Origin: Brevibacillus panacihumi W25
Lineage (GTDB): Bacteria; Bacillota; Bacilli; Brevibacillales; Brevibacillaceae
Direction of reading: 5' to 3'
NCBI RefSeq assembly: GCF_000503775.1
Contig: NZ_KI629786.1
Span: 62,001 to 126,000 of the forward strand
Length of the DNA stretch: 64,000 nt
Each line of letters opens with the position of its first letter. Within the stretch, counting starts at the first letter, position 1. The notes beneath the pieces were generated by a model, which saw nothing but the letters and a program-made list of their open reading frames with translations, was not told the DNA's origin and did no database searches. Below are positions 8,873-42,426 of the stretch, in pieces. The position numbers and the translations under genes were made by a program.

Positions 8873-8878
8873 TTAGAT

Positions 8879-26020: not shown

Positions 26021-26635
26021 CATAAGGAGCACAGATCATAGACTAACCAGTGTTGTTCATTTCAATTTTCAAATCTCTTCCCAGTTTTGTTAAGAATTTT
26101 GTGTAAACTCAGTCAACCGATTTATGAAAAGGTTTCATCCCCCTAATTGGGATATCCTTTTCGTAGACAACGGAGTCAAGGGCGTAAGGCGAAGCGAATC
26201 CTTGACACGTTGGTAGAGAAAATGACAATCCCTTCGGGAGTGACGCCTTCATTTTAAGCTGATATACGGCTTTACTTGATCCTCAAAGAAACTAGAATAA
26301 AACTAAATTTCCAGTTTTCTTAAAGTGCCTTTCTGCTCTTCTTAGCATAATTAACGATACTAATATCAACACAACTAAGACTAACAACAAAGTTCCTAAA
26401 TCAGGTAATATGTCAAAAAAAGAAGCTTTAGACATTAATAGTTTTCTAACAACATTTATAGAATACGTAAGAGGAAAACAAAATGAAACTAATTTTGCCC
26501 AAAGTGGAAAAGCCATTTGTGGGACTCTTACACCAGAAAAGATATTCATTGGTTCGTCTACAACAGTGAACAGAATACTACAATGCTCCCATAGGCTGAG
26601 ACACGGGAGCGTGATAAATAAGTTATAATGAAGCC

Positions 26636-26929
26636 ATGGAAAAACGGAACCGATATACCCCAGAATTTAAAACGAAGGTCGTGCTTGAGGTTCTTCAGGA
26701 AGAGCAGACCGTGAATCAAATTGCCGCCAAATATGAGCTGAATCCGGTGATGATCAGCCGGTGGAAAGCCGAGTTTCTTGAGCGAGCCTCGATGGTGTTC
26801 GAGAAGGGAACCAGTGAAGCGGACAAACTGAGAAAGGAGTACGAGAGCAAACAAGAACATCTGGAAAAGCTGGTCGGTCAACTAACCGTGGAGATCGACT
26901 GGCTCAAAAAAAAATCTGGCCTTAAATAA
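26636..26929 (+). CDS. IS3-family transposase OrfA
   Basis: 97 aa, HTH_Tnp_1/OrfA type: RNRYTPEFKTKVVLEVLQEE, VNQIAAKYELNPVMISRWKA and a leucine zipper. Near its end the run CTCAAAAAAAAATC offers the usual minus-one slippage site for making the OrfAB fusion. Confidence 0.9.
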   Translation: MEKRNRYTPEFKTKVVLEVLQEEQTVNQIAAKYELNPVMISRWKAEFLERASMVFEKGTSEADKLRKEYESKQEHLEKLVGQLTVEIDWLKKKSGLK

Positions 26930-26951
26930 ATCCGTCAAAGAGCGCCAAGCC

Positions 26952-27779
26952 ATGATTGAGCGCGATCATCCCACAATTAACATTAAGCGCCAAGCTTCTT
27001 TGTTAGGTGTTAATCGTACAAGTGTGTACCGCAAGCCCGCAGGAACGGAGGAGAGCGCTGAAAACATTCAAATCATGCACGTGATTGATGCCATCTACAC
27101 CGACAAGCCCTTCTTCGGGTACAGGCGGATCACCGTCAAACTGCGGGAAATGGGTTTCAACGTCAATCGCAAACGTGTACGGCGTCTGATGAGACTCATG
27201 GGGATTCACGGAATCCATCCACAGCCCAATTTGAGCAAGCGACTGCATGCAAAGTACGTTCGCCCTTACTTGTTACGGGGACTGGACATCCATCGCCCCA
27301 ATCACGTTTGGGGAGTAGATATCACATACCTTCGCATGGGGAAAGGATTTATGTACCTGTTCACCATCATAGACTGGTTCAGTCGCAAGGTGGTTGATTA
27401 CGAGTTGTCGAGCACGCTAGAGAAAGGGTTTGTCATGACCTGTCTGAAACGAGCATTTCGTCGCTGTAAGCCAGAAATCATCAACAGTGATCAAGGCAGC
27501 CATTTTACGAATGCAGATTATCTCAATCTGTTGGCAGAACATGAAATCCAGGTATCGATGGATGGCAAGGGACGTGCGACGGACAATAGTCGTACAGAAC
27601 GATTCTTTCGAGCTTTAAAGTATGAATGTATCTATCTGAATGAATTTGAAAATCCACGAGAATTACGGAAAGGCATCAAACGGTACGTCACGTTCTACAA
27701 TACGGACCGTCCTCATCAATCTTTGGACTATGCAACACCAGACAGGATTTACTACGAGCATGTAACATCGGTAGCATAG
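26952..27779 (+). CDS. IS3-family transposase OrfB (DDE integrase)
   Basis: 275 aa from the first ATG; in the fusion the frame starts earlier. HTH_21 region YRRITVKLREMGFNVNRKRV, then the rve core: WGVDITYLRMGKGF (first Asp), INSDQGSHFTNADY (second Asp) and GRATDNSRTERFFRALKYEC (Glu). Catalytic residues are intact, so the element may be active. Confidence 0.9.
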   Translation: MIERDHPTINIKRQASLLGVNRTSVYRKPAGTEESAENIQIMHVIDAIYTDKPFFGYRRITVKLREMGFNVNRKRVRRLMRLMGIHGIHPQPNLSKRLHAKYVRPYLLRGLDIHRPNHVWGVDITYLRMGKGFMYLFTIIDWFSRKVVDYELSSTLEKGFVMTCLKRAFRRCKPEIINSDQGSHFTNADYLNLLAEHEIQVSMDGKGRATDNSRTERFFRALKYECIYLNEFENPRELRKGIKRYVTFYNTDRPHQSLDYATPDRIYYEHVTSVA

Positions 27780-28507
27780 GCAGCTTTACATGGAGGGGCG
27801 GGCATGATAGGCTAGTTAGCCTCGCGATGCTAGCTTACTAGCCATCGCCCGATCGCGAGCAGTCATGCCCGCAGAGGCTCCATGTCAAGCGGCCTTCGGA
27901 ACTGTACCACCATTCAAAAAGATGGGAGGACATAACTTATTTTCGTTCTCAAAGTGTCTTGACAAAGGGGGGCATTACATACTAGCATCTCTAGAGAAAA
28001 GAAAAGCAATAGTTAAAAAACCTCCCCAAACTACCGCTGAAACTAATAATATTATGAACGCTAAAGGTATTGATAACCAGCCATTAATTTGAATTCCTTC
28101 TACCAAAAACATTACTATTACAATAAAAGTGAAATATAACCAGATTCCTTCAATAAGTGACGATAACGAACGCCCATAAATAAATGCTAATCTATTTACA
28201 GGTGTAATAAATATCATTTCAAGTGTACCAGATTGTCTCTCATAGCTCATTCTCCAGGCTGACTGCACAAGACACCAGAAAAAAGTGTAGCATAGATATC
28301 CAGTTAATAAGAATAATGTAAGTGATCCTGAATCCATGAATCTCTCTATAGGCGAATTTTTACCAGTAAAAAAAGGTTTAAAAGAATAAAATGCAATTAA
28401 AAATTTTAAAATTGGCCAAAAAAGAAGTGAAAAATAAATCAAATTACTTTGGAACATATTCCTATGCTCTTTCTTAAATTCTGCAATTATGAATGTTTTC
28501 CAGCCTT

Positions 28508-29494
28508 TCATGCACTTGTCCTCTCTGACATTAATAAAATTACATCTTCTAAGCTAGGTTTTTCCGACACAATATTAAGAATACGTAAGTTGTGGTATGC
28601 CAGTAGTGAAACTATAGAATTTGTCATATCTTTTTCTGATTTTATTATCAAATCATATTCATCATCATCTGTACTTTGAATTTGCCACGTTCCCTTGTTT
28701 TGGCTAATTTCATTATTTAACTTAGTATGTAGTGAATCTGGTATCTCTGAAACCGTGATCTTTAAGGTATTCTCCTTAAAGAAGAGGTTAGTTAACCTTT
28801 CAGGCTTGTCTTGCATAACCAATGATCCTTTATCAATAATAAGTACCTCATCACATAACTCTTCTACTTCTTTCATATAATGACTCGTTAGAATAATTGC
28901 TTTTCCTTTTTCCTTTGCTAATTCCTTGACATAATTTCTTAAATGCTTTGCGATTGATGCATCCAAACCTAAGGTTGGCTCGTCAAGAAATAGATATTTG
29001 GGGTTATTAATTAGACCTCTTGCAATCTGTAATCGTTGCTTCATGCCTTTAGAAAATTGTTCTACAGGAATATTAGATTTTATATCTAAGCCTACTTCCC
29101 TTAATAAACTAGTTATTCGATGATCCAATTCAGCTTCCTTAAGTCCGTAAAGGCTTCCAAAATACCTTAAATTTTCTTTCGCAGTTAGTTTCCAATATAG
29201 CATCCGCTCTCCACCAGCAATCATATTGACAATTGATTTTACTTTTTTATCATTTTTTACAATATCCATCCCATCAACAAATATAGTACCACTGCTAGGT
29301 TCAAGCAATGTTGAACACATTTTTATTGTTGTTGTCTTTCCAGCACCATTGATACCTAATAATCCAACAATTTGACCTGGTTCAACTTTAAATGATAAGT
29401 TGTTAACTGCAATATTTTCTTGCCATTCACTCTTGAACCAACCTAGTCTCTGTTTTGTTCTATAAATTTTACTTACATCATTAACTATTAACAT
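28508..29494 (-). CDS. ABC transporter ATP-binding protein
   Basis: 328 aa, DrrA/CcmA type. Walker A GINGAGKTTTIK, signature FSKGMKQRLQIARGL, Walker B KYLFLDEPTLGLDAS, H-loop ILTSHYMKEVEEL, then a C-terminal domain as in antibiotic exporters. With the two ABC-2 permeases it forms the export pump of the peptide/nucleotide cluster. It probably exports the mature product and gives immunity. The downstream permease is broken by an IS, so function may be impaired. Confidence 0.92.
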   Translation of the reverse strand: MLIVNDVSKIYRTKQRLGWFKSEWQENIAVNNLSFKVEPGQIVGLLGINGAGKTTTIKMCSTLLEPSSGTIFVDGMDIVKNDKKVKSIVNMIAGGERMLYWKLTAKENLRYFGSLYGLKEAELDHRITSLLREVGLDIKSNIPVEQFSKGMKQRLQIARGLINNPKYLFLDEPTLGLDASIAKHLRNYVKELAKEKGKAIILTSHYMKEVEELCDEVLIIDKGSLVMQDKPERLTNLFFKENTLKITVSEIPDSLHTKLNNEISQNKGTWQIQSTDDDEYDLIIKSEKDMTNSIVSLLAYHNLRILNIVSEKPSLEDVILLMSERTSA

Positions 29495-29506
29495 TTTTTC
29501 CTCCTA

Positions 29507-30313
29507 CTAGTAGTGCTGTTCAATAATTCGTTTCTCCATATGTTTGATTGATATTGACCCTATAAATAAATAGGTAATTGAAAGTACTAACAAATGGATA
29601 ACATCATTAATATGCAAGCTTATTAATTGTCCTTCTATAACTACGCTCCTGAACATAGTCAAGGATGGAAAGAGAGGCATAATATAGCTGAGTGGTTTTA
29701 TCCAATCCGGTAAATAAGCCACTGGAAAGGTGACACCTGATACAAAAGACATTATAAAAAACAGCGTATTTTGACTAATATAAGTATCGCGAAAATATAG
29801 CATTATACTTCCCAAAAAAAGAGCCTGGCAAAAGAAACTGAATATTGATAACACCCAAATTAATATAGCCCCAAATATGTTAATTTTACTTAAATCAAGT
29901 CCGAAAATAAGACCAAATGTAACAATTATAATGAATTCGAGTGAGGTTCGCATAATTTGTTGTGTTACATTACCAATAAAATATCCCTTCCTCGAAAAGG
30001 GCGATATAAGTAATCCTTCTAAAGTCCCTTCTCTATATTCTGTTATTAAGGAACGACTTACATTCATTAATGTTGAAACTGCAAATGAATAAAGTGCACC
30101 ACCTAAAATAACATAACTTAGATAATCGTTTGAACCCGCATATATTTTGAATCTTGGATCTAAGCTTCCCTTAAATACGTATGTATATGTAAAATAAGCA
30201 AAAAGTACCGTATAAACACCCGTAAGTATATGGCCAAGGAAAAATGACCATGGGTATGCTCTATACATTGCTATCGTATTTCTAACAAATGTTGCTTTAA
30301 TAACCGAAAACAT
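29507..30313 (-). CDS. ABC-2 type permease
   Basis: 268 aa with six hydrophobic segments (WSFFLGHILTGVYTVLFAYF, YLSYVILGGALYSFAVSTLM, IFGAILIWVLSIFSFFCQAL and others). It shares the LLISPF and FPVAYLPDW motifs of ABC-2 antibiotic exporters. It sits between the CPBP protease-like gene and the ATPase gene with short gaps. Confidence 0.87.
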   Translation of the reverse strand: MFSVIKATFVRNTIAMYRAYPWSFFLGHILTGVYTVLFAYFTYTYVFKGSLDPRFKIYAGSNDYLSYVILGGALYSFAVSTLMNVSRSLITEYREGTLEGLLISPFSRKGYFIGNVTQQIMRTSLEFIIIVTFGLIFGLDLSKINIFGAILIWVLSIFSFFCQALFLGSIMLYFRDTYISQNTLFFIMSFVSGVTFPVAYLPDWIKPLSYIMPLFPSLTMFRSVVIEGQLISLHINDVIHLLVLSITYLFIGSISIKHMEKRIIEQHY

Positions 30314-30342
30314 TTACTTCCCCCATTATTATTAATCATCGG

Positions 30343-31071
30343 TTAACAATCTACAGACTTATTCCTTTGAATCAAAAATCGATAGACATAATTAAATGCC
30401 ACTATTAAATTATATGTAAGATGAACCAAAATAGCTGTTATTATATCACCAGTAACACAGTACATGATTCCCCCACAAATACTCAGGAGAAATTGGAATA
30501 AGTAATCTTTAATTACAAATGATTTTGTAGCCCAGTAGTGGAGAAAATGTTCAACCATAAAAAGCAATGATGAAATGAAAACTCCTAAAGTTCCTCCGAC
30601 GAATGGATATAGTAGTACTAATACAAATGCCTTATAGTATGTTTCTTGAAAAACTGCTGAACCAATTTTAGTATACAATTCAATTGTGACAGTCTTGAAA
30701 GAAACAGGTGGTAATAACGATATAAAATCCTTATTATAAAATGGGCTTAGTTCTTTAAGGCGTGGAATAATGAAACAGATACCTATGATAATAGAGATTA
30801 GGTAAAGTCCCCCATCTTGTCTTATTTCGTTCATATGACTGGTTGGTAAGAACAATAAACAAAGCAAGTACGGTAAGAAATATACTGAGCGCCTAACCCA
30901 ATCAGCACCTTTAAACCAATTATTTTTAATTAAATGAGCATGCCTATTAATGAAATAATTTAAGTTTGTGAATATTAGTAAATAATACATTTCTGTTGTT
31001 TTAAATGATATAACAAACATGATTAACATAGCTTCTATAATAACTAGACTTATCCACTGATACTTACTCAT
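30343..31071 (-). CDS. CPBP (CAAX-like) intramembrane protease family protein
   Basis: 242 aa with about seven transmembrane helices. The CPBP motifs appear in weakened form: QETYYKAFVLVLLYPF (motif 1, EExxxR position is ETYYK), LLFMVEHFLHYW (motif 2 His) and ILVHLTYNLIVAF (motif with His and Asn). Such proteins occur in bacteriocin clusters as leader-processing or immunity factors. Here it follows a PqqD-like gene and precedes the exporter, so cleavage of leader peptides or immunity is a reasonable inference. Confidence 0.7.
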   Translation of the reverse strand: MSKYQWISLVIIEAMLIMFVISFKTTEMYYLLIFTNLNYFINRHAHLIKNNWFKGADWVRRSVYFLPYLLCLLFLPTSHMNEIRQDGGLYLISIIIGICFIIPRLKELSPFYNKDFISLLPPVSFKTVTIELYTKIGSAVFQETYYKAFVLVLLYPFVGGTLGVFISSLLFMVEHFLHYWATKSFVIKDYLFQFLLSICGGIMYCVTGDIITAILVHLTYNLIVAFNYVYRFLIQRNKSVDC

Positions 31072-31129: not shown

Positions 31130-31384
31130 CTATTCAACTTCTACTAATTCTTTACTGAGTAATTCTTGAATAAACTCCTGTAAATCGGATAAAACTGTTC
31201 CTTTGTCAACATTATAATTAGCAGCAATAGAGGCAGCTATTTCTTCTAATGGGGTTTTTCCATCAATTGATTTCCAAACAATTTCACCAATCTCATCTAG
31301 TTGATAAATTTCATTATTCTTTGCTAGATAGTTTATCCCATTTAATACGCGGCTTTGAACAAAAATATCTCTACTTAATATCAT
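31130..31384 (-). CDS. PqqD-like peptide-recognition protein 3
   Basis: 84 aa. The PqqD/RRE winged-helix pattern is visible: FVQSRVLNGINYLAKNNEIY, QLDEIGEIVWKSIDGKTPLE, IAASIAANYNVDKGTVLSDL and QEFIQELLSKELVEV. This fold binds leader peptides of ribosomally made natural products. It lies directly downstream of the 19-aa precursor-like gene, separated by a perfect hairpin. Confidence 0.83.
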   Translation of the reverse strand: MILSRDIFVQSRVLNGINYLAKNNEIYQLDEIGEIVWKSIDGKTPLEEIAASIAANYNVDKGTVLSDLQEFIQELLSKELVEVE

Positions 31385-31455: not shown

Positions 31456-31515
31456 TTAGGCATTTTCCATTCCGGCGAGCAATTTTACACTTTTCAGTTT
31501 TGGCGCTTTGTACAT
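31456..31515 (-). CDS. Precursor-like peptide 3 (19 aa)
   Basis: Complete short frame MYKAPKLKSVKLLAGMENA with a textbook AGGAGGTG ribosome binding site. It shares the start pattern M-x-x-(Y/A)-x-x-P-x-L with the other two peptides (here M-Y-K-A-P-K-L) and is next to a PqqD-like gene. It is too short to be an ordinary enzyme. The last residues, GMENA, could be the modified part. It could also be a regulatory leader peptide; the hairpin immediately after it is compatible with both. Confidence 0.68.
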   Translation of the reverse strand: MYKAPKLKSVKLLAGMENA

Positions 31516-31541: not shown

Positions 31542-32369
31542 TTAACTTAGCTGTTTATCTCTTAATGATCCTTGAACCCTAAGATTTAACTCTTGGCAAT
31601 ACTTCACTACTTCTTTAACGTATTTCTTTGAATCATTAATATATTCAGGTGAGATTAAATAACTCTGATATTTATCAAGTAAGGTATGGTCTCCTGTTGT
31701 CTGTTGGTATCTCTTTATTTTTCTAAACATCCATTTTGGATTAGGATTTGTCTCTCCATATACTGACAAATAAGAGTTAACAACAACATCAAGTAATAAT
31801 CTAGCCATAACAACTGCAGAACCAATATCCTCCGATATAATAGAACCTTGTAAATCCTCAAGTAAACCTGCATATCTCTCTGACGAGGTAACCACGCTAT
31901 AATAATTTAAATTTTCAAATTCTATTTTCTCGTATATATTATAGAAAGTAGTAGGGTTTACTAATGGTTTAGCAAATTTTAAACGATGTAATAGATCAAA
32001 CTCACTATAAGTCAATCGATCCAAATAATTTTCGGTTTTAAAATCAAGTTTATTAAGACGATTAATCATATCATTGAAACAATTCCAACTCCAAAACTCA
32101 AAATCGTATCGTACTCCATCAACTCTTACATTCCATACAACACATTGTTCAACCTGTAAAACAGCATCATTAGAAGAAAACTGATTTTTTAATCGATCCA
32201 AATTCTCATCGTGGCAAATAACATAAATGTCAACATCTGATTTTACATTACCAAACCCCTCAGCAATTGAGCCTGCTACATAAACAAGGGAACTATTTAT
32301 ATCAATCGAACTTATCATTTTCGTAATAGTTTCAGGAGTAACAAGGACCTTTTCTAACAATGGGTGCAT
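31542..32369 (-). CDS. Nucleotidyltransferase-fold protein 2
   Basis: 275 aa of the pol-beta type nucleotidyltransferase superfamily: VYVAGSIAEGFGNVKSDVDI has the GS-x10-DxD active-site pattern complete, followed by a third acidic position (VRYDFEFWSW). The C-terminal helical half resembles KNTase/aminoglycoside nucleotidyltransferases. It could attach a nucleotide to a peptide or small molecule. Its neighbours are precursor 3 and the PLP decarboxylase. Confidence 0.78.
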   Translation of the reverse strand: MHPLLEKVLVTPETITKMISSIDINSSLVYVAGSIAEGFGNVKSDVDIYVICHDENLDRLKNQFSSNDAVLQVEQCVVWNVRVDGVRYDFEFWSWNCFNDMINRLNKLDFKTENYLDRLTYSEFDLLHRLKFAKPLVNPTTFYNIYEKIEFENLNYYSVVTSSERYAGLLEDLQGSIISEDIGSAVVMARLLLDVVVNSYLSVYGETNPNPKWMFRKIKRYQQTTGDHTLLDKYQSYLISPEYINDSKKYVKEVVKYCQELNLRVQGSLRDKQLS

Positions 32370-32387: not shown

Positions 32388-33683
32388 CTAATGTAAATTT
32401 TCAACATTTTTATTTGAAAATAGAATTTGATCTCTAAAAACATCTTCAGCCATTTGCCTTTTTCTTATCATACAACTACCAATTTCATTATTATTTGAAT
32501 AAACCCAAATTTCAGTACAATAACCTTGACTTAGGAATAATGATGGGCTAGCTGTTAATCCATATGCACCGGATCCCTTTAACACAATTAGATCTCCTTG
32601 CTCCAATTCAGGTAGTAGTACGTTTTCTAATAACATATCTGCTGGAGTGCACAAGGGACCACCCACGTTTTGAATAATATTATTACGATTGTTCGAACTG
32701 ATTACCTCTGTTATAAAGTTACCATCAGTATTTTTCCTAATTCCTCCAGCTGCAGCTATGTTTTGGTGTATACCTCCATCAGTTATGGCAAACCTTTTTC
32801 CTCTAGATTCTTTGGTATATAATACTTTAGTTACGTAAAACCCACATTGCGCAACAAGATATCTTCCTGACTCTAAAATCAATCTTGGAACGTATCCGAG
32901 GTCATTAATGTAACTATCAATAAAAGGAGATAAATGCTTTTTAATTTCATCAAGATTAACTGATCCTTGTTGTTCATATACTGTAGGCATCAACCCTCCG
33001 CCAAAATCTATCATTTCCAACTTGAAATTATGCTTAGATGAAAGTCTAGCTGCCATTTCTAAGATATATTTTGTATTTTCAAAGAAGATTCGCCAGTCCA
33101 ATATTCCAGTCCCCATATATGTATGAATACCTATTATATGTACAAACTTATATTTGTTATTAATATCACTCTCTGAATAAAACCAATCTTCATCAATACC
33201 AAATTTTGATGACGTTCCACTCATTATTAACTCGGAACCTCTTCCAACAAGAGAAGGATTTACACGAAGAGCAATATTGATTTTTCGGTTGTATTTCAGA
33301 CCAATAGTATTTATTAAATCAAGTTCTTGAATTGATTCAACAACAATACAATAAACATCATGTGAAATTGCAAATTCTATTTCATGTGCAGTCTTGCCGG
33401 GTCCAACAAAAATAATATCTTTAGAATTTGCCCCAGCTTTTAATGCACAAATCAATTCTGATTCTGATGATATTTCAAGTCCTGCTCCCAGATTGTTAAT
33501 ATGATTAACGATTGTTACATTCGGATTAGCTTTAACAGAGTAGAACACTTCAATTTTTTCATGAAGAGCATTTTTCAGCTTATTATAGGTATTGGTTAGT
33601 ATTTGTTCATCATATACAAAGAATGGTGTTTTATATTCGATCGATAGGTTCTTTAAAAGATTCTTTGTAATTAGGTGATCCAC
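32388..33683 (-). CDS. PLP-dependent decarboxylase, fold type III (DapDC/Orn-Lys decarboxylase-like)
   Basis: 431 aa. PLP lysine Lys51 in FYSVKANPN, phosphate-binding GGGL (IDFGGGLMPTVYEQ), HIIGIHTYMG, SGRYLVAQCGFYVTKVLYTK and the C-terminal GPLCTPADMLLENV with the cross-subunit Cys and Asp. AYGLTASPSLF is also typical. The family includes diaminopimelate, ornithine/arginine and carboxynorspermidine decarboxylases and BtrK, which acts on a carrier-bound glutamyl group. Here it could supply an amine, or act on an amino acid joined to the nucleotide or peptide. Confidence 0.85.
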   Translation of the reverse strand: MDHLITKNLLKNLSIEYKTPFFVYDEQILTNTYNKLKNALHEKIEVFYSVKANPNVTIVNHINNLGAGLEISSESELICALKAGANSKDIIFVGPGKTAHEIEFAISHDVYCIVVESIQELDLINTIGLKYNRKINIALRVNPSLVGRGSELIMSGTSSKFGIDEDWFYSESDINNKYKFVHIIGIHTYMGTGILDWRIFFENTKYILEMAARLSSKHNFKLEMIDFGGGLMPTVYEQQGSVNLDEIKKHLSPFIDSYINDLGYVPRLILESGRYLVAQCGFYVTKVLYTKESRGKRFAITDGGIHQNIAAAGGIRKNTDGNFITEVISSNNRNNIIQNVGGPLCTPADMLLENVLLPELEQGDLIVLKGSGAYGLTASPSLFLSQGYCTEIWVYSNNNEIGSCMIRKRQMAEDVFRDQILFSNKNVENLH

Positions 33684-35846: not shown

Positions 35847-36123
35847 CCTTTATAACAATATATGCCAAATCATTTTCCAATAACATATCTTGGAATTCTA
35901 ACAAGTCTTTTTCAATTTCTATCTTATCCAACATATAATCTTTTGCTATTTTTTCAATAATCTCTTCGTTTGATGTTTCTCCGTCTAATAACTGCCAAAT
36001 CAACCATGCTACACCTGATAACTCAAAAGCAGTACCGTCAAGCTTCCCGATATATGCCTTGTCTTCAACTTTTCTAAAAATAACATCAATGGCTCGCTTT
36101 AAGTAAGCTGGTTTTACAAGCAT
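35836..36123 (-). CDS. PqqD-like peptide-recognition protein 2
   Basis: 95 aa. VIFRKVEDKAYIGKLDGTAF, ELSGVAWLIWQLLDGETSNE, IIEKIAKDYMLDKIEIEKDL and EFQDMLLENDLAYIV fit the PqqD winged-helix pattern. It overlaps both neighbours (glycosylase-like and nucleotidyltransferase genes). Confidence 0.82.
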   Translation of the reverse strand: MLVKPAYLKRAIDVIFRKVEDKAYIGKLDGTAFELSGVAWLIWQLLDGETSNEEIIEKIAKDYMLDKIEIEKDLLEFQDMLLENDLAYIVIKDEF

Positions 36124-36821
36124 CTATGTTCACTCCCTTGCAAAAAATTATAAAAGATACTTTTAAAGCCATTAAATGTGTTACCTGTTCTTCCAAAATA
36201 CATTAAATGTCTAATTGCAAAGACATAAATCAAATGGTTTTCTAAGTATATGTATGCAACTGGTCCCAAATTCTCAATTACATTTATGTCTTCTGCTTTA
36301 TTCATTAAATAATAGCTAATTTTCTTTTTTAGTAATAAATTTAATAAACTGTTGAAAGCTTCTTTACCGTGAATAATTAATATATTCGGTTTAAATATTT
36401 TCAGTGTCTTAATAAACAGATCTTGACTAATTGAAATTATTTCTGTATTAATTTTTTTAAGTTCCCTAGAGGAACTTGTTGGATAAGTAGTCACATTTGT
36501 TTCTATAACTTGTTTTTTAGAAATATACTCAATCCAAGATGTGAGATTATCAATCCCTATTCTGGTTCTTGATATTCCTTTCTTTCCTTGGTTTAATCTT
36601 TTGTTAATATAAAATTTCTTGAAATTATTGTAATCACATAAGAGACTTATGTAATCTTTATACGCTAAATCACTAGGATAAATTGGTGTTGCAGGATTTA
36701 TTCCAACTATGAAAATGCCTATTTCTTTTGGATAAGTTTTGCATAAAAATGGACGTAAATACGGCTCCTTTTGAGATATATAGATGTCTTCAAGAAAAAA
36801 CTTTTTCGTTATATCAACCAT
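36114..36821 (-). CDS. Uracil-DNA glycosylase superfamily-like protein
   Basis: 235 aa. GIFIVGINPATPIYPSDLAY resembles motif A (GxNPxxxxxxxxxY) of UDG-fold enzymes, KPNILIIHGKEAF the central strand, and VFAIRHLMYFGRTGNTFNGF the place of motif B with its His. It is not a canonical Ung. In a non-DNA setting it could cleave or bind a nucleoside base; phage pathways for hypermodified thymine use glycosylase relatives as base-modifying enzymes. It overlaps the kinase gene by 8 bases and the PqqD gene by 10. Confidence 0.66.
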   Translation of the reverse strand: MVDITKKFFLEDIYISQKEPYLRPFLCKTYPKEIGIFIVGINPATPIYPSDLAYKDYISLLCDYNNFKKFYINKRLNQGKKGISRTRIGIDNLTSWIEYISKKQVIETNVTTYPTSSSRELKKINTEIISISQDLFIKTLKIFKPNILIIHGKEAFNSLLNLLLKKKISYYLMNKAEDINVIENLGPVAYIYLENHLIYVFAIRHLMYFGRTGNTFNGFKSIFYNFLQGSEHRCL

Positions 36822-37443
36822 CTAGAAACCTACTTTTAATTAATTCTATAGCCATGTCTGTTACTTGGTTTGTTGATAATGTTGCATCCAACCTTTCTAC
36901 ACTAATTGATTCTATTTTGAAAAAGTAATCATATAGCTTAATCGCTTCTTGTAATTTTTCTGGCGTTTCTTTTGGAGTTAGTTTTTTGCCCCTTTCTTTT
37001 AATCTTTGCCAAGCAATTTCATGAGGAACTTCAAGATACACATTCAAATCAGGCTTAATCAAAAGGTTATTTATTCTTCTCAATATTCCAATATCTACAT
37101 TATTTATATATGGATAAACTAAGTTGCAAATCGAATACCTATCTGTAATAACAGTTTTTCCGGATCCTAAAGCTGGTTCGATATGATACATTGATTTATG
37201 AAGTAAGTCTAAACCCCACGATCCCCCCCTTAATATTGGCGAAAAGCACTCTCTTCGCGAGGTATTTAACTTCTTTGCTACTGCTTCTAATTCAGGTGTA
37301 AATATCGCATCTTCTTGAGAATAAAATGTTTTTACCTCATTAAAATTGCTTAAATATGTTGAAATATTTTGAGCTAATGTTGATTTACCTGATCCATCAA
37401 TTCCATATATACAAATAAATTTCCCATGAATATTCATAGCCAA
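36814..37443 (-). CDS. Thymidylate kinase-like P-loop kinase 1
   Basis: 209 aa. P-loop CIYGIDGSGKSTLAQNI is close to authentic Tmk (GIDGSGKST). TVITDRYSICNLVYPYI supplies the DRY motif and LNVYLEVPHEIAWQRLKERG the following strand. The LID lacks the normal RxxxR spacing. It probably phosphorylates a nucleoside monophosphate analogue. Tight spacing with NUDIX upstream and the glycosylase-like gene downstream. Confidence 0.83.
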   Translation of the reverse strand: MAMNIHGKFICIYGIDGSGKSTLAQNISTYLSNFNEVKTFYSQEDAIFTPELEAVAKKLNTSRRECFSPILRGGSWGLDLLHKSMYHIEPALGSGKTVITDRYSICNLVYPYINNVDIGILRRINNLLIKPDLNVYLEVPHEIAWQRLKERGKKLTPKETPEKLQEAIKLYDYFFKIESISVERLDATLSTNQVTDMAIELIKSRFLDG

Positions 37444-37449
37444 TCCTCT

Positions 37450-37950
37450 CTATATATTTATAGGAGTAATATTTTCAATTTTCCATTCGATATGATTATC
37501 TGGTAAACACCATTCAACACGTGCATTCATGAATTCATCCTTGAAAAGCATTCTTGAAATAAAAGCTTTATGATATTCAGGTATAGCATTGTGAGATTCG
37601 ATGTCTTTCATATCTATCCAGCATGGTTGTACCTTTTCTGGTTCATTATTTTGAAGTTCTCCCTCAACGGAGTTACTTACAAAAAAGAAACAAACTGAAT
37701 GATATGAACTCGTGTGAGCAATAAATGAAACGACACCCTTCATTTTAAGGTTAACTACTGATAATCCCGTTTCTTCTTGCATTTCTCTTCTACATGCCTC
37801 TTCTAATGTCTCGTGAAGTTCAACATGCCCACCAGGTGGAATAAACTTATTATAATTAGATGACTGAGGATTTAATCTTTTAATAAAGGCTAATTTATTA
37901 TCCCTAAATGCTAAACATGAAACCTGCACTCTAATTTGCATAGACAACAT
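37450..37950 (-). CDS. NUDIX hydrolase
   Basis: 166 aa with a perfect NUDIX box, GGHVELHETLEEACRREMQE followed by ETGL. The N-terminal strand CLAFRDNKLAFIKRLNPQSS and the tail VQPCWIDMKDIESHNAIPEY complete the fold. These enzymes cleave nucleoside diphosphates linked to another group. It could release the monophosphate from a triphosphate or a nucleotide conjugate, or act as a housecleaning enzyme that keeps the unusual nucleotide out of DNA. It overlaps the hydroxymethylase-like gene by 20 bases. Confidence 0.88.
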   Translation of the reverse strand: MLSMQIRVQVSCLAFRDNKLAFIKRLNPQSSNYNKFIPPGGHVELHETLEEACRREMQEETGLSVVNLKMKGVVSFIAHTSSYHSVCFFFVSNSVEGELQNNEPEKVQPCWIDMKDIESHNAIPEYHKAFISRMLFKDEFMNARVEWCLPDNHIEWKIENITPINI

Positions 37951-38800
37951 CCTCCTTTACACTCTTCTTATCTCCGTAATCTTTCAAGTGTTGAGCTAGA
38001 ATTTTAAAATAATCATTAAACTGGCTCAAATTAATTTCTTTACCTCTTCTTAAATTACTTTCGTAATAAATGAGCATTTCAATTTGTTCTTCTTGCTGCA
38101 TAAAGGGCATCGCTGGCATTTCATATATATATTCTGGTTTGCTGTGTCCTATTTCAGCAACAATTTGAATATGCTTATCGTAAACATGTAAACTATTAAC
38201 TAAATGAGTGTAAGTCCCAATACTAACCCCAAGCATAGAAGCAACATACTCTTGCATCATAGAAAAATTAAAAACATCATATGGTAAGCCTAAATAAACA
38301 TCGTTAGATCTCATATGAACCATTGCATGTAATTGTTGATCTCTTATTAAAAATTGAATTCCACACGTACAAGGTATATCTTTACTGTTTACTGCTACAT
38401 CCCGATGAGAATATATTGGAATCAGCGCTCTTCGTGTATCTGGGTCCCTTTTTAGTAAGCTAATAACTTTTGGTAACTCACCAATAAATCTAGGACCATA
38501 TGCTCCGTATAATGTTTCTCCGTCATCAGAATATTTTCCGTAACTTGGAGCATAGTACTCTAACATTTTTAAATTATTTGAACCTTTTATGCACCATAAC
38601 CATTCAGCAATTGCAAAAGGTATTGATATATTTCTCTTTTTGTTTTGTAACATTCTTGTTCTAGGATTATTAATCCTTACGAATGCTCCTAATATTTCAT
38701 GTGTATGAAGACCACGTGGCGATGAAATATTACCATTTTCAGTTATATATTTACATACTTGAGTATAAACAGAATCAAAGTCGTCCCCAATTATATACAT
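37931..38800 (-). CDS. Thymidylate synthase homologue with dCMP-hydroxymethylase-type Asn-to-Asp change
   Basis: 289 aa. Catalytic Cys144 (DIPCTCGIQFL), phosphate-binding Arg pair (DTRRALI, 123-124), Arg164 and Asp167 (VHMRSNDVYLGL), and His205/Tyr207 (NSLHVYDKH) all align with E. coli ThyA at an offset of two. The residue equivalent to ThyA Asn177, which reads the uracil base, is Asp175 (LGLPYDVFNF). In dCMP/CMP hydroxymethylases this position is Asp and selects cytosine. Prediction: makes a 5-substituted (hydroxymethyl) cytidine nucleotide. Confidence 0.87.
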   Translation of the reverse strand: MYIIGDDFDSVYTQVCKYITENGNISSPRGLHTHEILGAFVRINNPRTRMLQNKKRNISIPFAIAEWLWCIKGSNNLKMLEYYAPSYGKYSDDGETLYGAYGPRFIGELPKVISLLKRDPDTRRALIPIYSHRDVAVNSKDIPCTCGIQFLIRDQQLHAMVHMRSNDVYLGLPYDVFNFSMMQEYVASMLGVSIGTYTHLVNSLHVYDKHIQIVAEIGHSKPEYIYEMPAMPFMQQEEQIEMLIYYESNLRRGKEINLSQFNDYFKILAQHLKDYGDKKSVKEDVVYAN

Positions 38801-38817
38801 ACATACACCCCCTAAAA

Positions 38818-39744
38818 TTACTTTGTAATATCTAAGCAGAAATTAATTAACTTAATTCTCTCTTTTACAACAGTAATTAAGTTTTCAATTTTAATTGAAT
38901 CGTAAATATATATCGGGAAATTACTTTGGATAAGGTAACTTAGTAATTGTTGTATAATTTTTTCGATACTAAATTCTGCTTTAGATACGAAAGAGTAGCA
39001 CTCAAGAAAATAGCACATTTTCTTTACATCATAATTGCTTAATAATACAGCCGCCCTACCTATTTCAATCCATAGATCATTAATCCCGGCATAATCAAAA
39101 TCAATAAATTTTACTTTTTCTCCTTCGCAATGGCTAATAATTATATTACTAGGTTTCAAATCTCCATGAGTTAGCGACAAATGCTGTGGAGAAAAAGAGA
39201 TTTTATTTTTCTGAATAATTCTATAACGTAAGTCTAGTAAATCACTAATGTAATTTATAGCAATATTTTCTGATGTTCTCGTATGAAAGTAAGATTGATA
39301 ATTCACTATTTCATTCATAATCTCTTCATAATTTTTTGATAGTTTTCTATTGGGTAATTCTATATTTTTAGAAACCACATGCATTACATGCATATGTTGA
39401 GCGATGGCATTTAACGTATGCTGATTACATTCTGTGCTAGGATGTTCACCTTCTAAATATTCCTGCATAGTAAACATATGATTTTCTTCGACTGTAATAA
39501 ATGAATTTTCTTCATTTAAAAGTACTGATGGTGCAATATTATGTTCAGAACAATTACTTTGTATCTTCAGTACTCTTTCCAATGTAGAGTGGGTTATATT
39601 CTTATAAAATTTCAAGATAAAGTATTTTTGATCACTTTTAATTTTATATACATTATTAAGACTATCGACATTTATTTTCTCAATAGTATTAACACTGATT
39701 TTTGGATAATTATTACTTAAATACCGGAGTATACTGTCATACAT
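38818..39744 (-). CDS. Aminoglycoside-phosphotransferase-like kinase
   Basis: 308 aa. N-lobe YKIKSDQKYFILKFYKNITH with the ATP-binding Lys, catalytic loop LTHGDLKPSNIIISH (Brenner-type HGD-x4-N) and metal motif VKFIDFDYAGINDLWIEIGR. The group includes choline, homoserine and methylthioribose kinases and antibiotic kinases. As part of this operon it may phosphorylate a nucleoside or the product (self-protection). It starts directly after the second TS-like gene, overlapping by a base. Confidence 0.83.
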   Translation of the reverse strand: MYDSILRYLSNNYPKISVNTIEKINVDSLNNVYKIKSDQKYFILKFYKNITHSTLERVLKIQSNCSEHNIAPSVLLNEENSFITVEENHMFTMQEYLEGEHPSTECNQHTLNAIAQHMHVMHVVSKNIELPNRKLSKNYEEIMNEIVNYQSYFHTRTSENIAINYISDLLDLRYRIIQKNKISFSPQHLSLTHGDLKPSNIIISHCEGEKVKFIDFDYAGINDLWIEIGRAAVLLSNYDVKKMCYFLECYSFVSKAEFSIEKIIQQLLSYLIQSNFPIYIYDSIKIENLITVVKERIKLINFCLDITK

Positions 39745-40745
39745 TAAACCACTTCCAAAGATTTGTGTGCTGGATTTGAAATAAAATACTCAAAGCTAAT
39801 CCTCAAATCCGATTGTTCTAACAATGATAATTTCTCTCTAATCAACTCTTCGTTTCGATTTTCACCGTATAATACTCCTAATAACAAAACTTTCAGCCAA
39901 TATTTTAGAAAATACGGTAGTTCGTAATGGTTTATGGAAGAAAAGTAATTCTCAACATTATCACTTATTCCATTCTGGTGCCACTTAGTTAATACATCCA
40001 GTGTAAAGGAAAATTTTTCCCTATATGAGGAATAGTCACATTCGACTTTTATATTCTGTCCTGAAGAGACGTTATAGTTAATTATCGGTCCCCTGTTAAT
40101 TAACTCATTCGCTTTTATAAACGGCTCAGTAACATGTAAGCAGGTAGAACTATAATACATGCGTCCAACCTCAACCTTTAACCACCCAGCCATCAATTCT
40201 AATAATGTAGAATAAGTATGTGTGTCACTATTTGTAAAATCGAGCATATGGGTCGCTCTATAATTCAAATACATGTCGAGCTTACCTTCTCTGATAAGGA
40301 ACTGAATATAAGTTGAACAAGGCATATGTTTTTGTTTAGGATTCATCAAACATATTATTGCTTGCCTTGACTCATGATCTTCAGACAAAACAGCTAAACA
40401 CTTTGCTATTTGATCTCCATAAATTGAGTATAATCTTGGTCCAACTGCCTCTGGAAAATGTCCATTTTGATCAAAAAACTCCATTGCTCCTTTATATTGT
40501 TTTAAAACGTATGAGTCTGTTCGTCCTGATAAAACAAATATTGTTTCTACAATGTCAAAAAGCATACACGATAGGCTTTGAAATTCACATTTCAGCAAGG
40601 GTTTATCAATTTCACAAAAGACAAAATCTATTTGTCTCGCATTTAAAACCTTATTAAATTTTGTTTCTCTTCCTTCTTGTACCACTTTGCGAAGCATACC
40701 ATGAAACATTTCCCCAGGCGTTCGAAAGCGATAGTAATTCATCAT
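39744..40745 (-). CDS. Divergent thymidylate synthase homologue
   Basis: 333 aa. Keeps the core: MPCSTYIQFLIREGKLDMYL with Cys143, Arg127 in ESRQAIICL, Arg163 in LNYRATHMLD, and His204 in CLHVTEPF. The substrate loop reads DFTNSDTHTYSTLLELMAGW instead of LGxPFNIAxYAxL, so folate or base specificity must differ. The C-terminus is about 60 residues longer than ThyA and lacks the PFDLVI-type ending. It may form a hetero-oligomer with the next TS homologue or act on a different base. Confidence 0.8.
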   Translation of the reverse strand: MMNYYRFRTPGEMFHGMLRKVVQEGRETKFNKVLNARQIDFVFCEIDKPLLKCEFQSLSCMLFDIVETIFVLSGRTDSYVLKQYKGAMEFFDQNGHFPEAVGPRLYSIYGDQIAKCLAVLSEDHESRQAIICLMNPKQKHMPCSTYIQFLIREGKLDMYLNYRATHMLDFTNSDTHTYSTLLELMAGWLKVEVGRMYYSSTCLHVTEPFIKANELINRGPIINYNVSSGQNIKVECDYSSYREKFSFTLDVLTKWHQNGISDNVENYFSSINHYELPYFLKYWLKVLLLGVLYGENRNEELIREKLSLLEQSDLRISFEYFISNPAHKSLEVV

Positions 40746-40750
40746 GACAG

Positions 40751-41035
40751 TTAATTTCCTCCCACACTTACTATTAATTTATTTCTAAGTAAACTATAAA
40801 TAAATGCTATTAAATCCTCTTCCAACTTAATAGGAGACACATTGTATTCATTCTTCAAAATTAAAATAATCTCTTCGACAGTCTTAATTCCATCCAATTC
40901 ACTCCAAATGCGTTCACTTATTCCTTTAAGAAAGTAATATTTGTCGTCAATAAAACTATGTATCCCAATACCTTCTTCCGTATTAAATATTTTCAGGTCT
41001 AGACTATAGTAATAAACGTTATTTTTACTTAACAT
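40751..41035 (-). CDS. PqqD-like peptide-recognition protein 1
   Basis: 94 aa. VYYYSLDLKIFNTEEGIGIH, YFLKGISERIWSELDGIKTV, EEIILILKNEYNVSPIKLEE and DLIAFIYSLLRNKLIVSV match the PqqD fold. It lies directly after precursor 1 and begins the large block of nucleotide enzymes, four bases before the divergent TS gene. Confidence 0.82.
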   Translation of the reverse strand: MLSKNNVYYYSLDLKIFNTEEGIGIHSFIDDKYYFLKGISERIWSELDGIKTVEEIILILKNEYNVSPIKLEEDLIAFIYSLLRNKLIVSVGGN

Positions 41036-41058
41036 CCAATAATTACTCTCCTTACTAT

Positions 41059-41083
41059 GGACGGAGGCACATTACCTCCGCCC
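41059..41083. promoter_or_regulatory. Hairpin downstream of precursor 1
   Basis: On the minus strand GGGCGGAGG-TAATGTG-CCTCCGTCC, without a U-run, between precursor 1 and PqqD 1. It mirrors the hairpin after precursor 3 and probably sets precursor-to-enzyme ratio. Confidence 0.62.
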
Positions 41084-41098
41084 AAAAACATTGTTAAG

Positions 41099-41248
41099 TT
41101 ACGCTCTGCATTTACTGAAAGTAAGATCTGTTCTACATTTGTTGAAATCTGTTCTGCACTTATTGAAAGTAGAGAACTCATTCAGATAGGAGACCATTTC
41201 TTCCAAATCACCAACCAAAAGCAACTCAGGGCATTCATATTGTTTCAT
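41099..41248 (-). CDS. Precursor-like peptide 1 (49 aa) with three KCR repeats
   Basis: Frame from ATG 41,248 with AGGAGGTG upstream. Residues 1-24 form a leader (MKQYECPELLLVGDLEEMVS and so on). Residues 28-48 hold three repeats, FNKCRTD, FNKCRTD and FSKCRA, visible also as repeats in the DNA. The repeated K-C-R is the obvious candidate for enzyme modification, with Cys as nucleophile. It is followed by a hairpin and PqqD 1. It resembles multi-core RiPP precursors; I do not recognise a named family. Confidence 0.78.
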   Translation of the reverse strand: MKQYECPELLLVGDLEEMVSYLNEFSTFNKCRTDFNKCRTDLTFSKCRA

Positions 41249-41266
41249 TTAATTCACCTCCTTTCT

Positions 41267-42304
41267 CTATTTAAAAATCAACGTTGCATCCCCAAATTCA
41301 TAGAACAGATACTCTTTTTGTATTGCTTCTCTGTAAGCGTCCATTATTAAACTTTGTCCAGCCATGGCTGCAGCTAAGGCGATTCGACTTGTTCTTGGCC
41401 CATGAAAGTTAGTTACTATACCATCAATGACTTTAAACTCAAAGCCTGGATAAATATATAGATTAGTCCAAGAGCTTCCACTTTGAATAACCCCGTTTTC
41501 ATTAACAGAACTTTCTAATGTCCGAGTAACAGTAGTACCTATTGCTATTATTTTATTACCTTTTTCTTTAGTCTCATTAATTTTACGAGCAGTATTCTCT
41601 GATATAGAATAACTTTCAGAGTACATTTGGTGCTCTTCCAGTTCTTCTGTTTCTATGGTCATTGAACTTAAACCCGTGTGAAGAGTGATATACTCTATTT
41701 CTATTCCTGAATTTTTCAATTCCTCTAATAATGTTTTTGTAAAATGTCTCCCTGCTGCAGGTAACTCTACTGATCCAGGAATTGTTGCATACTCATTTTG
41801 GTAATATTCAAGTGACCACATTTTTTCAGTGTAGTTTGAAATTATTGGTCTCCCGTATTTTTCAGATAGGAAGATAAGCTCTTCTTCATGAATTAACTCC
41901 AATTCGAATAGACCATATATATCATTACTTGGGCCAATTATCTTAAATTCTAGCCCCTCACCTACTTCAAAGATTTGATTTGCCATATTATCCTTAAAAG
42001 TATTATGTAATGTAGCTAACCAACGTCGTTTGTCTAATTGACTGCATAAGGCTACACTTACAAAACCCACATTTTTATTTTTTCCTTGAAAAACAGCATT
42101 AATAGTTTTGCTGTTATTTAAAACGATTAGGTCACCTTCACTTAGATAGCTCCCAATATTTCTAATATTGTCATGAATTATTTTATTCTGACTTTTTTGG
42201 ATGACCAACATACGACTATCACTTCTATTTTGACCATCTATTTCTCTTGGTCTTCTTGCTAATAATTTTGGAGGAAGTTCAAAATCGAGTTCACTAACCT
42301 TCAT
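41267..42304 (-). CDS. QueA-like S-adenosylmethionine:tRNA ribosyltransferase-isomerase homologue
   Basis: 345 aa. LDFELPPKLLARRPREIDGQ, SRMLVIQKSQNKIIHDNIRN, LSEGDLIVLNNSKTINAVFQ, ATIPGSVELPAAGRHFTKTL and YPGFEFKVIDGIVTNFHGPR follow QueA from end to end. Several usually fixed residues differ (GPRTS in place of LPKSTL, ELPAAG in place of APTAG). QueA transfers the ribosyl of SAM to preQ1 in tRNA. A paralogue at the head of a peptide/nucleotide operon probably transfers a SAM-derived group to a different acceptor. Confidence 0.85.
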   Translation of the reverse strand: MKVSELDFELPPKLLARRPREIDGQNRSDSRMLVIQKSQNKIIHDNIRNIGSYLSEGDLIVLNNSKTINAVFQGKNKNVGFVSVALCSQLDKRRWLATLHNTFKDNMANQIFEVGEGLEFKIIGPSNDIYGLFELELIHEEELIFLSEKYGRPIISNYTEKMWSLEYYQNEYATIPGSVELPAAGRHFTKTLLEELKNSGIEIEYITLHTGLSSMTIETEELEEHQMYSESYSISENTARKINETKEKGNKIIAIGTTVTRTLESSVNENGVIQSGSSWTNLYIYPGFEFKVIDGIVTNFHGPRTSRIALAAAMAGQSLIMDAYREAIQKEYLFYEFGDATLIFK

Positions 42305-42397
42305 TCTTTTCTCCCCTTCTATTTATTTTTATTTATTAAATTGCAATTCATTCTGAGAAATTATCAAAATTTGTAAACACCCCAACCTCTTTTCCAT

Positions 42398-42426
42398 ATT
42401 TTATCAGGGTTTTTTTGGAATATCAA
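42398..42426 (-). promoter_or_regulatory. Sigma-A-type promoter of the peptide/nucleotide cluster
   Basis: On the minus strand TTGATA (42,421-42,426), 17-bp spacer, TAAAAT (42,398-42,403), about 95 bp before the QueA-like start. It is the only clear promoter I found for the roughly 20 colinear genes. Confidence 0.7.

Follow-up and report, generated by a model that had tools for sequence, protein, structure and literature searches.

We analysed 64,000 nt of Brevibacillus panacihumi W25 (GCF_000503775.1, contig NZ_KI629786.1, positions 62,001–126,000; hereafter the window) and found a minus-strand gene cluster, running from window position 42304 to 26295, in which short leader-bearing peptides lie beside PqqD-type leader-binding proteins, paralogues of thymidylate synthase (TS), nucleotide kinases and predicted nucleotidyltransferases (NTases). 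The reading that we favour, tentatively and with a little less than even confidence, is that this operon makes a peptide–deoxycytidylate conjugate: as residue signatures and a structural model suggest, 5-hydroxymethyl-dCMP (hm-dCMP) from the paralogue TS2 would be phosphorylated by kinases and transferred by an NTase to an octapeptide precursor held by a PqqD protein. Such a product would resemble microcin C in its logic, as a peptide-nucleotide, and is probably a competition compound. A preliminary description of this DNA had proposed that ribosomal peptides are joined to modified pyrimidine nucleotides. Because the genes recur jointly and the short frames are conserved, this remains the best-supported frame, although the TS2 residues point more narrowly to a nucleotide of the dCMP type.

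With overlaps in seven adjacent gene pairs and gaps of at most 71 nt between the listed genes (Table 1), the cluster has the layout of an operon, and its GC content of 31.6%, against 47.0% in window 1–21800 and 53.8% at 62–64 kb, bears out the earlier picture of a one-strand, AT-rich cluster. Pfam and NCBIfam scans covered 20 proteins, namely 19 operon proteins and an upstream deaminase. Every family named in the preliminary description is encoded on the minus strand of the cluster, nearly all above the Pfam cut-off and with the exporter present, but the uracil-DNA glycosylase (UDG)-like protein and NTase2 gave sub-threshold matches only and NTase1 had no Pfam match.

The block occurs in three distantly related lineages, in two of which it lies on plasmids. 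A tblastn search of 72,556 plasmid records with TS1 returned 27 matching records, and three of the six that were examined (H1, H2, H3, H16, H17, H20) carry the cluster: the conjugative plasmid pGeo12a of Geobacillus thermodenitrificans, and pSaLI10 and pSAL813 of Streptococcus salivarius. The remaining three, from Apilactobacillus kunkeei (H3), Priestia (H20) and Sinorhizobium fredii (H2), gave TS matches that do not belong to this cluster. By tblastn, 15 of 20 window proteins have counterparts in the pGeo12a block and 11 in that of pSaLI10, with the order largely kept; pSAL813 has the same annotated block as pSaLI10. Precursor, PqqD, TS, Tmk-like kinase and NTase thus recur together in Geobacillus and S. 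salivarius with the short frames conserved, as the preliminary description had anticipated for a genuine system. The orders QueA–precursor A–PqqD1 (the S. salivarius precursor A being a weak candidate) and PqqD2–NTase1–precursor B are identical in all three lineages, the window having in addition NTase2–precursor C–PqqD3; the PLP decarboxylase, APH kinase, CYTH and CPBP genes and the TS pair are shuffled between lineages. Ten window proteins are represented in both other blocks, and for nine of them the Geobacillus version is the closer one, the exception being permease 1 (26% versus 36%); such parallel declines in identity are expected if the genes have mostly been inherited together.

The system is rare and mobile. 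NTase1 matched three of the 72,556 plasmid records, the same three as above, and the S. salivarius NTase used as query gave the same result. In a database of 5.8 billion proteins an NTase profile found five proteins, two of which belong to the window, in a list that is incomplete since the Geobacillus NTase is missing from it; a TS1 profile found 14, eight of them strongly (E < 1e-70), a number that includes the window protein itself and one protein that is a shorter version of another in the set. The TS1 matches include Bacillus sp. BB56-3 and S. salivarius-like proteins standing for 54 and 62 member sequences, and P0003, P0004, P0007 (Bacillus sp. BB56-3) and P0008 are TS1 relatives. No relative emerged from a TS1 pattern scan of 84,980 species genomes, which gave 47 pattern stretches with narrow patterns, one of which P0007 itself would fit imperfectly, and a QueA pattern scan of genomes gave two unrelated loci only; the QueA-like loci L029 and L030 were set aside, as no other protein among the 20 from the window matched there. 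Viral contigs yielded no cluster relative, and neither 149 related genomes (31 others match TS1 weakly, at best with 31 bits) nor 398 genomes of the class (four others pass E 1e-15, outside the TS1 clade) held a cluster beyond the window. The S. salivarius QueA matches 81 plasmid records, of which two were examined besides the cluster plasmids, one from Sinorhizobium meliloti (see below) and one from Monoglobus, an ordinary queA–tgt pair. In the window, genes for Tn7-like TnsA, Mu-type TnsB, TniB/TnsC and two TnsD/TniQ proteins (48478–57047, minus strand) share the AT-rich stretch with the cluster, which is probably cargo of a Tn7-like element; the ends of that element were not identified in one search.

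The short frames are of two types, a distinction absent from the preliminary description, which had listed three precursor-like short peptides. Precursor A begins YxxPxLxxxG[D/N]LEEM and ends in three F[N/S/A]KCR repeats, both in the window and in a 51-aa Geobacillus counterpart of the same position and layout (L004 17486–17641). The KCR units are written with different synonymous codons (AAG/AAA, TGC/TGT, AGA/CGT/CGA), a sign of selection at the peptide level. The 50-aa frame first taken for this precursor (41029–41181) was rejected in favour of the overlapping 49-aa frame 41099–41248 in another reading frame, which is the one conserved in Geobacillus; the likely precursors of the window are those at 41099–41248, 34952–35065 and 31456–31515. 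In precursors of the B/C type the pattern Y-x-x-P-x-[LVI]-x-x-x-K precedes a tail of exactly eight residues, which is MPVATMLI in window B, MPTAIVEI in Geobacillus, LSASALLV in S. salivarius and LLAGMENA in window C. The tails show little sequence conservation and end in I, I, V and A, respectively, and the lysine of the pattern is present in five of five motif copies of this type (including the first copy in window B). In shuffles a lysine stood there in 4.4% of cases (92/2109), a figure that does not translate into a formal probability, the peptides being homologous.

Discrete recognition elements (RREs) of ribosomally synthesized and post-translationally modified peptides (RiPPs) recognise a leader motif [Y/W]xxPx[L/V/I/F/A], according to the accessible portion of PMC13381572, and this motif fits all six motif-bearing peptides of the three lineages. 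As a control, short open reading frames (sORFs) with a ribosome-binding site and the pattern Y..P.[LVIFA] were counted and compared with 60 dinucleotide shuffles per cluster. The window cluster has three among 27 sORFs preceded by such a site, and these are also the only three among 175 in the whole window; there are 2/85 in Geobacillus (L004), 1/86 in S. salivarius (L006) and 0/46 in S. meliloti (L032). Shuffle means were 0.12 (window), 0.10 (L004) and 0.07 (L006), with a maximum of 1. The 5.5 Mb genome has only three PqqD matches (PF05402, cut-off 23.4 bits), all in the cluster. Geobacillus PqqD proteins score 39.7 and 52.9 bits, above the cut-off, as does one from S. salivarius (44.2 bits), whereas the S. 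salivarius counterpart of PqqD1 has no Pfam match and was recognised by profile comparison (94% probability). In all three lineages motif-bearing sORFs with a ribosome-binding site adjoin PqqD genes, so that, judged by sequence, the hallmark of a RiPP system, an encoded precursor whose leader is recognised by a biosynthetic protein, appears to be present.

The nucleotide is suggested by TS2. Its best match in the PDB is MilA, with 149 bits versus 82 for the next (184 versus 95 by profile). MilA is a CMP 5-hydroxymethylase in which Lys133 and Ala176 select ribose and Asp186 selects cytosine, as given in the part of PMC5175136 that was available. At these positions TS2 has Arg/Ser/Asp in all three cluster copies, which also keep the residues E, R, C, R, S, D, H and Y, so that all catalytic residues are present; Arg/Ser/Asp together with the catalytic Glu, Cys, Arg, His and Tyr is the published signature of a dCMP 5-hydroxymethylase. 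Among the comparators, bacimethrin/mildiomycin-type homologues (L034, L036, L007) have K/A/D and the host ThyA R/S/N; R/S/D occurs as well in one of the seven other TS homologues compared (L035) and is not unique to the cluster. TS2 therefore looks like a dCMP enzyme, as predicted from these residues, rather than a CMP or dUMP enzyme, and its reading as a bacimethrin-type CMP hydroxymethylase was rejected on the same positions. It also resembles phage TS/hydroxymethylases. The preliminary description had cast both TS homologues as makers of hydroxymethyl-pyrimidines; TS1 is a divergent protein that is partly degenerate in streptococci. TS1 forms a clade of its own (support 100/100). Its catalytic Cys and cytosine-selecting Asp are kept in 7/7 sequences; in Bacilli it has R/A/D, again not the Lys/Ala/Asp of MilA and BcmA, and the ribose-contacting Tyr is missing in four of five. 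Possibly TS1 serves as a partner subunit, takes as its substrate a nucleotide that has been modified beforehand, or uses a new acceptor. The genome has separate housekeeping copies of QueA (480 bits) and ThyA (438 bits) elsewhere, which indicates that the QueA-like and TS copies of the cluster are dedicated to it.

For the transfer step, an AlphaFold2 model of NTase1 built from five sequences (pLDDT 85.2) was matched by Foldseek to 3c18, ANT(4''), KNTase and LinB, with TM values of 0.45–0.59, and also to Hailong HalB. The motif G-S...DxD and a third Asp are invariant. Together, the pol-beta motif and the modelled combination of an NTase and a helical domain are those of antibiotic nucleotidyltransferases of the ANT/KNTase/LinB kind.

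On this basis we propose the following route. TS2 would convert dCMP to hm-dCMP, which the Tmk-like kinases would phosphorylate toward the triphosphate, the last step falling to the host's NDP kinase. NTase1 would then transfer the nucleotide to RRE-bound precursor B, and NTase2 likewise to precursor C; the nucleotide might be accepted by the carboxylate at the C-terminus, by the invariant lysine or by an N-terminus newly exposed through cleavage. The APH kinase might phosphorylate the hydroxymethyl group or another hydroxyl, while the NUDIX and CYTH proteins could rid the producer's dNTP pool of the modified triphosphate; CPBP would release the peptide and the ABC pump export it. In a putative second arm, precursor A, PqqD1, TS1 and the QueA-like protein would carry a second modification.

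Several observations weigh against this route. The fold match of NTase1 is moderate, with an rmsd of 5–7 Å over the best rows, and many of the next-best structures cover only the helical C-terminal part (HEPN proteins). Its nucleotide is not readable from sequence: it might be AMP, with modified dCMP then used in another step, since related folds use ATP or other nucleoside triphosphates. In the pseudomycoidin lasso cluster an NTase homologue is associated with hexose addition (PMC9266682, as far as the accessible text goes), so that NTase homology does not prove nucleotidylation. Enzymes of the modelled fold class act for the most part on hydroxyl groups of small molecules, yet the octapeptides share no conserved Ser, Thr, Tyr, Cys, Asp or Glu; the attachment to peptide side chains proposed in the preliminary description finds no support, there being no conserved Ser, Thr, Tyr or Cys in the NTase-paired tails. 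The eight-residue spacing in window B is counted from the second of its leader motifs, chosen after the other peptides were known, and the S. salivarius candidate for precursor A, 24 aa long, lacks both the YxxP motif and KCR repeats. The loss of catalytic Glu, Arg and His positions from streptococcal TS1 finds no explanation in a simple pathway. In the S. salivarius locus tblastn found no counterpart of the UDG-like protein, the PLP decarboxylase, CPBP or the second set of kinase and NTase. Finally, the lineage basis comprises three lineages only.

These points leave room for other explanations. The nucleotide might be joined through its base, a 5-methylene-cytosine electrophile generated by TS1 or by kinase activation being captured by the Cys or Lys of the KCR repeats, with the NTase putting an ordinary nucleotide on the octapeptide to give a separate product or a partner. 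We consider this unlikely but give it some weight: PqqD1 directly precedes TS1 in the window (5 nt gap) and in Geobacillus, the KCR unit is threefold with the synonymous changes noted above, and TS1 keeps its Cys and cytosine Asp while losing the sugar contact and, in streptococci, further catalytic positions. Phage hypermodification kinases phosphorylate hydroxymethyl groups, and the APH kinase could do likewise. No homologue of the phage pyrophosphorylases was found, however, in the Pfam and NCBIfam scans or in a PHROGs scan of 10 proteins, S. salivarius lacks the KCR repeats, and we know of no TS with a thiol acceptor. Quite unlikely, in our judgement, is that the peptides are scaffolds, on which a PqqD-presented small nucleoside–amino-acid product is built, tailored by the PLP decarboxylase, QueA-like and UDG-like proteins and cut off before the peptide is discarded. 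The poor sequence conservation of the octapeptide tails would suit such a role, as would a Sinorhizobium plasmid cluster with a PLP decarboxylase, a QueA-like, a PqqD-like (20.8 bits) and a CPBP protein and no visible TS or NTase; but the exact eight-residue length and the KCR repeats suggest that the peptides matter, and neither a peptide aminoacyl-tRNA ligase nor an enzyme of the non-ribosomal peptide synthetase type appeared in the Pfam and NCBIfam scans.

We assign little probability to the cluster being cargo for nucleotide metabolism or defence (through modified dCTP or an anti-phage immunity based on the NTase), with the peptides as regulators or chance frames. RRE-type proteins, leader motifs in the short frames and an exporter fit peptide biosynthesis instead, the scanned operon proteins include no DNA polymerase, methylase or nuclease, and a search of 50,697 phage records gave no match to NTase1, which argues against a phage origin. 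Tn7-like elements do often carry defence cargo, and the AT-rich stretch is shared with tnsA, B, C, D and D; NTase1 is matched by Hailong HalB and, C-terminally, by HEPN structures, and TS2 has its phage resemblance. PADLOC gave single-family matches for Tmk1 (60 and 48 bits), the deaminase (70 bits over 55 residues) and the APH kinase and NTase2 (about 20 bits), all to general enzyme families and, among the 10 proteins scanned, to no recognisable system. Similarly improbable is that NTase and PqqD belong to a route to a phospho- or glyco-peptide like those of paeninodin or the linear polyphosphorylated peptides (LPP) while the nucleotide genes make an unrelated, co-exported compound. LPP and paeninodin-like clusters also pair discrete RREs with an NTP-transferase, as the part of PMC13381572 consulted describes; set against this, TS, kinases and NUDIX or CYTH–NUDIX accompany PqqD and NTase within a single block in 3/3 lineages, and Pfam and NCBIfam scans saw no HprK kinase, SpI peptidase or lasso B2 or C protein. 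Slimmest of all are the chances of a class combining hm-dCMP-capped octapeptides, coupling of a 5-methylene pyrimidine to the KCR cysteines by TS1, transfer of the SAM ribose to the neighbouring lysines by the QueA-like protein, joining of the two modified peptides and NUDIX–CYTH self-protection. The Sinorhizobium cluster, which has a QueA-like and a PqqD-like gene with neither TS nor NTase annotated nearby, hints that QueA and PqqD form an independent peptide-modifying pair.

We read the cluster as a probable new class, since its gene set recurs and the scans found no enzyme that defines one of the known RiPP classes; a plain peptide-nucleotide as product would bring it closer to the kinds already described. 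The preliminary description had noted that the usual cyclases are absent, and indeed none of the 19 operon proteins is a lanthionine, YcaO, lasso B2/C or radical SAM enzyme in the Pfam and NCBIfam scans; the APH protein scores 14.5 bits against the class III LanKC model, whose cut-off is 575. It knew of no described class with this gene set, and among the titles listed by searches of the open-licence literature, the scope excluding subscription papers, none names a class with PqqD/RiPP and thymidylate synthase, PqqD and QueA, or peptidyl nucleotide and RiPP. Microcin C is made by ThiF-like MccB with no RRE, and no ThiF/MccB match was found among the 20 proteins scanned here. MccA is a leaderless heptapeptide that carries its nucleotide C-terminally, whereas the cluster precursors have a YxxPxL leader and an eight-residue tail, and the cluster has RRE-type proteins, an enzyme whose model shows the antibiotic-NTase fold, and a putative dedicated route to a modified deoxycytidylate. 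The likeness lies in the short precursor of fixed length (mostly 7 aa for microcin C in the accessible portion of PMC6495379; 8 aa for the tail here), the nucleotide expected on the peptide and carriage on plasmids; a modified cytidylate, too, has a precedent (PMC9239234, from an excerpt). With LPP/paeninodin-like lasso systems the cluster shares a discrete RRE, the [Y/W]xxPx[L/V/I/F/A] leader, a member of an NTP-transferase family and Bacillota hosts (PMC13381572, same portion), but the scans found neither the B2 protease and asparagine-synthetase-like macrolactam synthase of lasso peptides nor the HprK-like kinase and SpI-like peptidase of LPP, its NTase1 lies outside Pfam, and it adds TS, Tmk, APH, NUDIX, CYTH and QueA-like proteins.

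MilA is the nearest solved relative of both TS1 and TS2, yet compared with mildiomycin and bacimethrin (MilA/BcmA) systems the cluster has R/S/D (dCMP) in place of K/A/D (CMP), encodes precursors and, in the operon scans, lacks a nucleoside-deoxyribosyltransferase-type (MilB-like) domain. The L034 and L036 neighbourhoods each have one, combining a MilA-like TS with a nucleoside-deoxyribosyltransferase-like protein and a methyltransferase, and differ from the window's cluster; calling them bacimethrin-type is our reading of those neighbourhoods. Phage T4-type synthesis of hm-dCMP has in common with the cluster the dCMP-hydroxymethylase signature, an NMP kinase and candidate triphosphate-cleaving enzymes, while the cluster has RRE-type proteins, precursors and an exporter and shows no phage replication genes. 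On Sinorhizobium meliloti pRmeGR4a (L032) a QueA-like gene overlaps a PqqD-like gene that falls below the cut-off, near a PLP decarboxylase and CPBP; unlike the cluster, the stretch examined has two radical SAM proteins, no annotated TS, Tmk or NTase and no YxxP sORF. Were the peptide–deoxycytidylate reading true, the cluster would represent a second natural route to peptide-nucleotides besides microcin C, by way of a leader and RRE, a resistance-fold NTase and a modified deoxynucleotide made for the purpose. A compound of a new class, perhaps antimicrobial, would then come from mobile genes that a human oral commensal also carries, and QueA and TS, textbook tRNA and DNA enzymes, would have been recruited into peptide chemistry.

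Table 1 Features of the cluster in gene order, with window coordinates (RRE, RiPP recognition element; PLP, pyridoxal phosphate; DAP, diaminopimelate; SAM, S-adenosylmethionine)
Feature	Coordinates	Strand	Basis or remark
QueA-like (SAM ribosyltransferase-isomerase family), second copy	41267..42304	-	PF02547 307 bits (cut-off 25)
Precursor A, 49 aa	41099..41248	-	YECPEL leader motif, then three KCR repeats
PqqD1 (RRE type)	40751..41035	-	PF05402 45.2 bits; 46% identical in Geobacillus
TS1, divergent thymidylate-synthase/CMP-hydroxymethylase paralogue	39744..40745	-	PF00303 42.8 bits (cut-off 24.3); MilA best PDB match by profile
APH-family kinase	38818..39744	-	47.9 bits (cut-off 23.2); HGD and IDF residues invariant in three clusters
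TS2, predicted dCMP-type 5-hydroxymethylase	37931..38800	-	PF00303 105.9 bits (cut-off 24.3)
NUDIX hydrolase	37450..37950	-	67.5 bits (cut-off 21.1); fused to CYTH in S. salivarius
Tmk1, thymidylate-kinase-like NMP kinase 1	36814..37443	-	PF02223 74.6 bits (cut-off 27)
UDG-superfamily-like protein	36114..36821	-	GINPATP motif; PF03167 19.8 bits, under cut-off 24.3
PqqD2	35836..36123	-	PF05402 45.1 bits; overlaps NTase1
NTase1, predicted antibiotic-nucleotidyltransferase-like fold	35079..35846	-	AlphaFold2 model; Foldseek; G-S...DxD and third Asp
Precursor B, 37 aa	34952..35065	-	two YxxPxL motifs, the second followed by K and tail MPVATMLI
Tmk2, thymidylate-kinase-like NMP kinase 2	34303..34929	-	PF02223 57.3 bits (cut-off 27); window only
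CYTH triphosphate-tunnel protein	33702..34310	-	PF01928 73.5 bits (cut-off 23.2); PDB 2gfg/3sy3 by profile
PLP-dependent decarboxylase, DAP/ornithine decarboxylase family	32388..33683	-	PF02784 144.4 bits (cut-off 23.4)
NTase2, paralogue of NTase1	31542..32369	-	24% identical to NTase1, E 6e-9 (single comparison)
Precursor C, 19 aa	31456..31515	-	YKAPKLKSVK + LLAGMENA; window only
PqqD3	31130..31384	-	PF05402 56.7 bits; 34% identical to PqqD2
CPBP (Rce1-like) intramembrane protease	30343..31071	-	PF02517 37.7 bits (cut-off 22.4)
ABC-2 exporter permease 1	29507..30313	-	domain scan
ABC exporter ATPase, DrrA-like	28508..29494	-	domain scan
ABC permease 2, N-terminal piece	27975..28511	-	aligns with residues 2-174 of the S. 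salivarius permease
Insertion element, two transposase frames	26636..27779	+	transposase and integrase-core domains; PF01527 in 26636-26929; PF13276, PF00665 in 26952-27779
ABC permease 2, C-terminal piece	26295..26603	-	matches S. salivarius permease residues 166-264; sub-threshold ABC2_membrane matches

The remaining enzymes differ in how well they are conserved. The QueA-like protein is 62% identical to the Geobacillus and 41% to the S. salivarius cluster copy, and a QueA tree is compatible with one clade of cluster QueAs or with more than one. The UDG-like protein has a 40% identical counterpart in Geobacillus; no PDB match was obtained by profile, and a single-sequence model reached a pLDDT of 38. 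The PLP decarboxylase is 51% identical in Geobacillus, the CYTH and NUDIX domains form one protein in S. salivarius (L006 22776–23825), and Tmk2 finds only a paralogue match in the other clusters. On pGeo12a the exporter genes carry annotations without a break. Permease 2 is uninterrupted on the S. salivarius plasmids, and the intact S. salivarius protein aligns to the window as two pieces (28499–27978 and 26603–26295) on either side of the insertion element, which we take to be of the IS3 type; with its permease 2 split in this way, strain W25 may not export the product. Across a 2.7 kb gap upstream of the operon lies a ComEB-like dCMP deaminase (45011–45517, minus strand), for which tblastn found no counterpart in the Geobacillus and S. 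salivarius clusters.

A few observations were made beside the main subject. A report of a thymidylate synthase in a genomic island (PMC9867215) was set aside as unrelated, the enzyme being FAD-dependent in the text available. The pRmeGR4a stretch 8165–14614 (L032) encodes SPASM and B12-binding radical SAM proteins and looks like a RiPP-like cluster using a QueA homologue; a QueA 92% identical to its copy occurs in S. medicae. To our knowledge, no RiPP-like cluster of this kind has been described. Elsewhere in the window lie a purine riboswitch (Rfam RF00167, 70 bits; 3563–3663, minus strand), unrelated to the cluster, and, at 16687–21790 (minus strand), genes for a 1119-aa SMC-like ATPase with a sub-threshold match to an ABC-3C middle component and a 592-aa protein with no Pfam match, possibly a defence system. 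On the S. fredii plasmid (L008 14962–20321), genes for a TS-like protein, a metallophosphoesterase, an NTP pyrophosphohydrolase and a uracil-DNA glycosylase stand together, possibly a modified-nucleotide cassette of a different kind. The A. kunkeei plasmid (L005 3208–22069) carries ketosynthase genes and, farther on, a TS homologue with K/A/N residues that adjoins genes annotated as nucleotide N-hydrolase and D-Ala-D-Ala ligase; these may belong to a nucleoside pathway.

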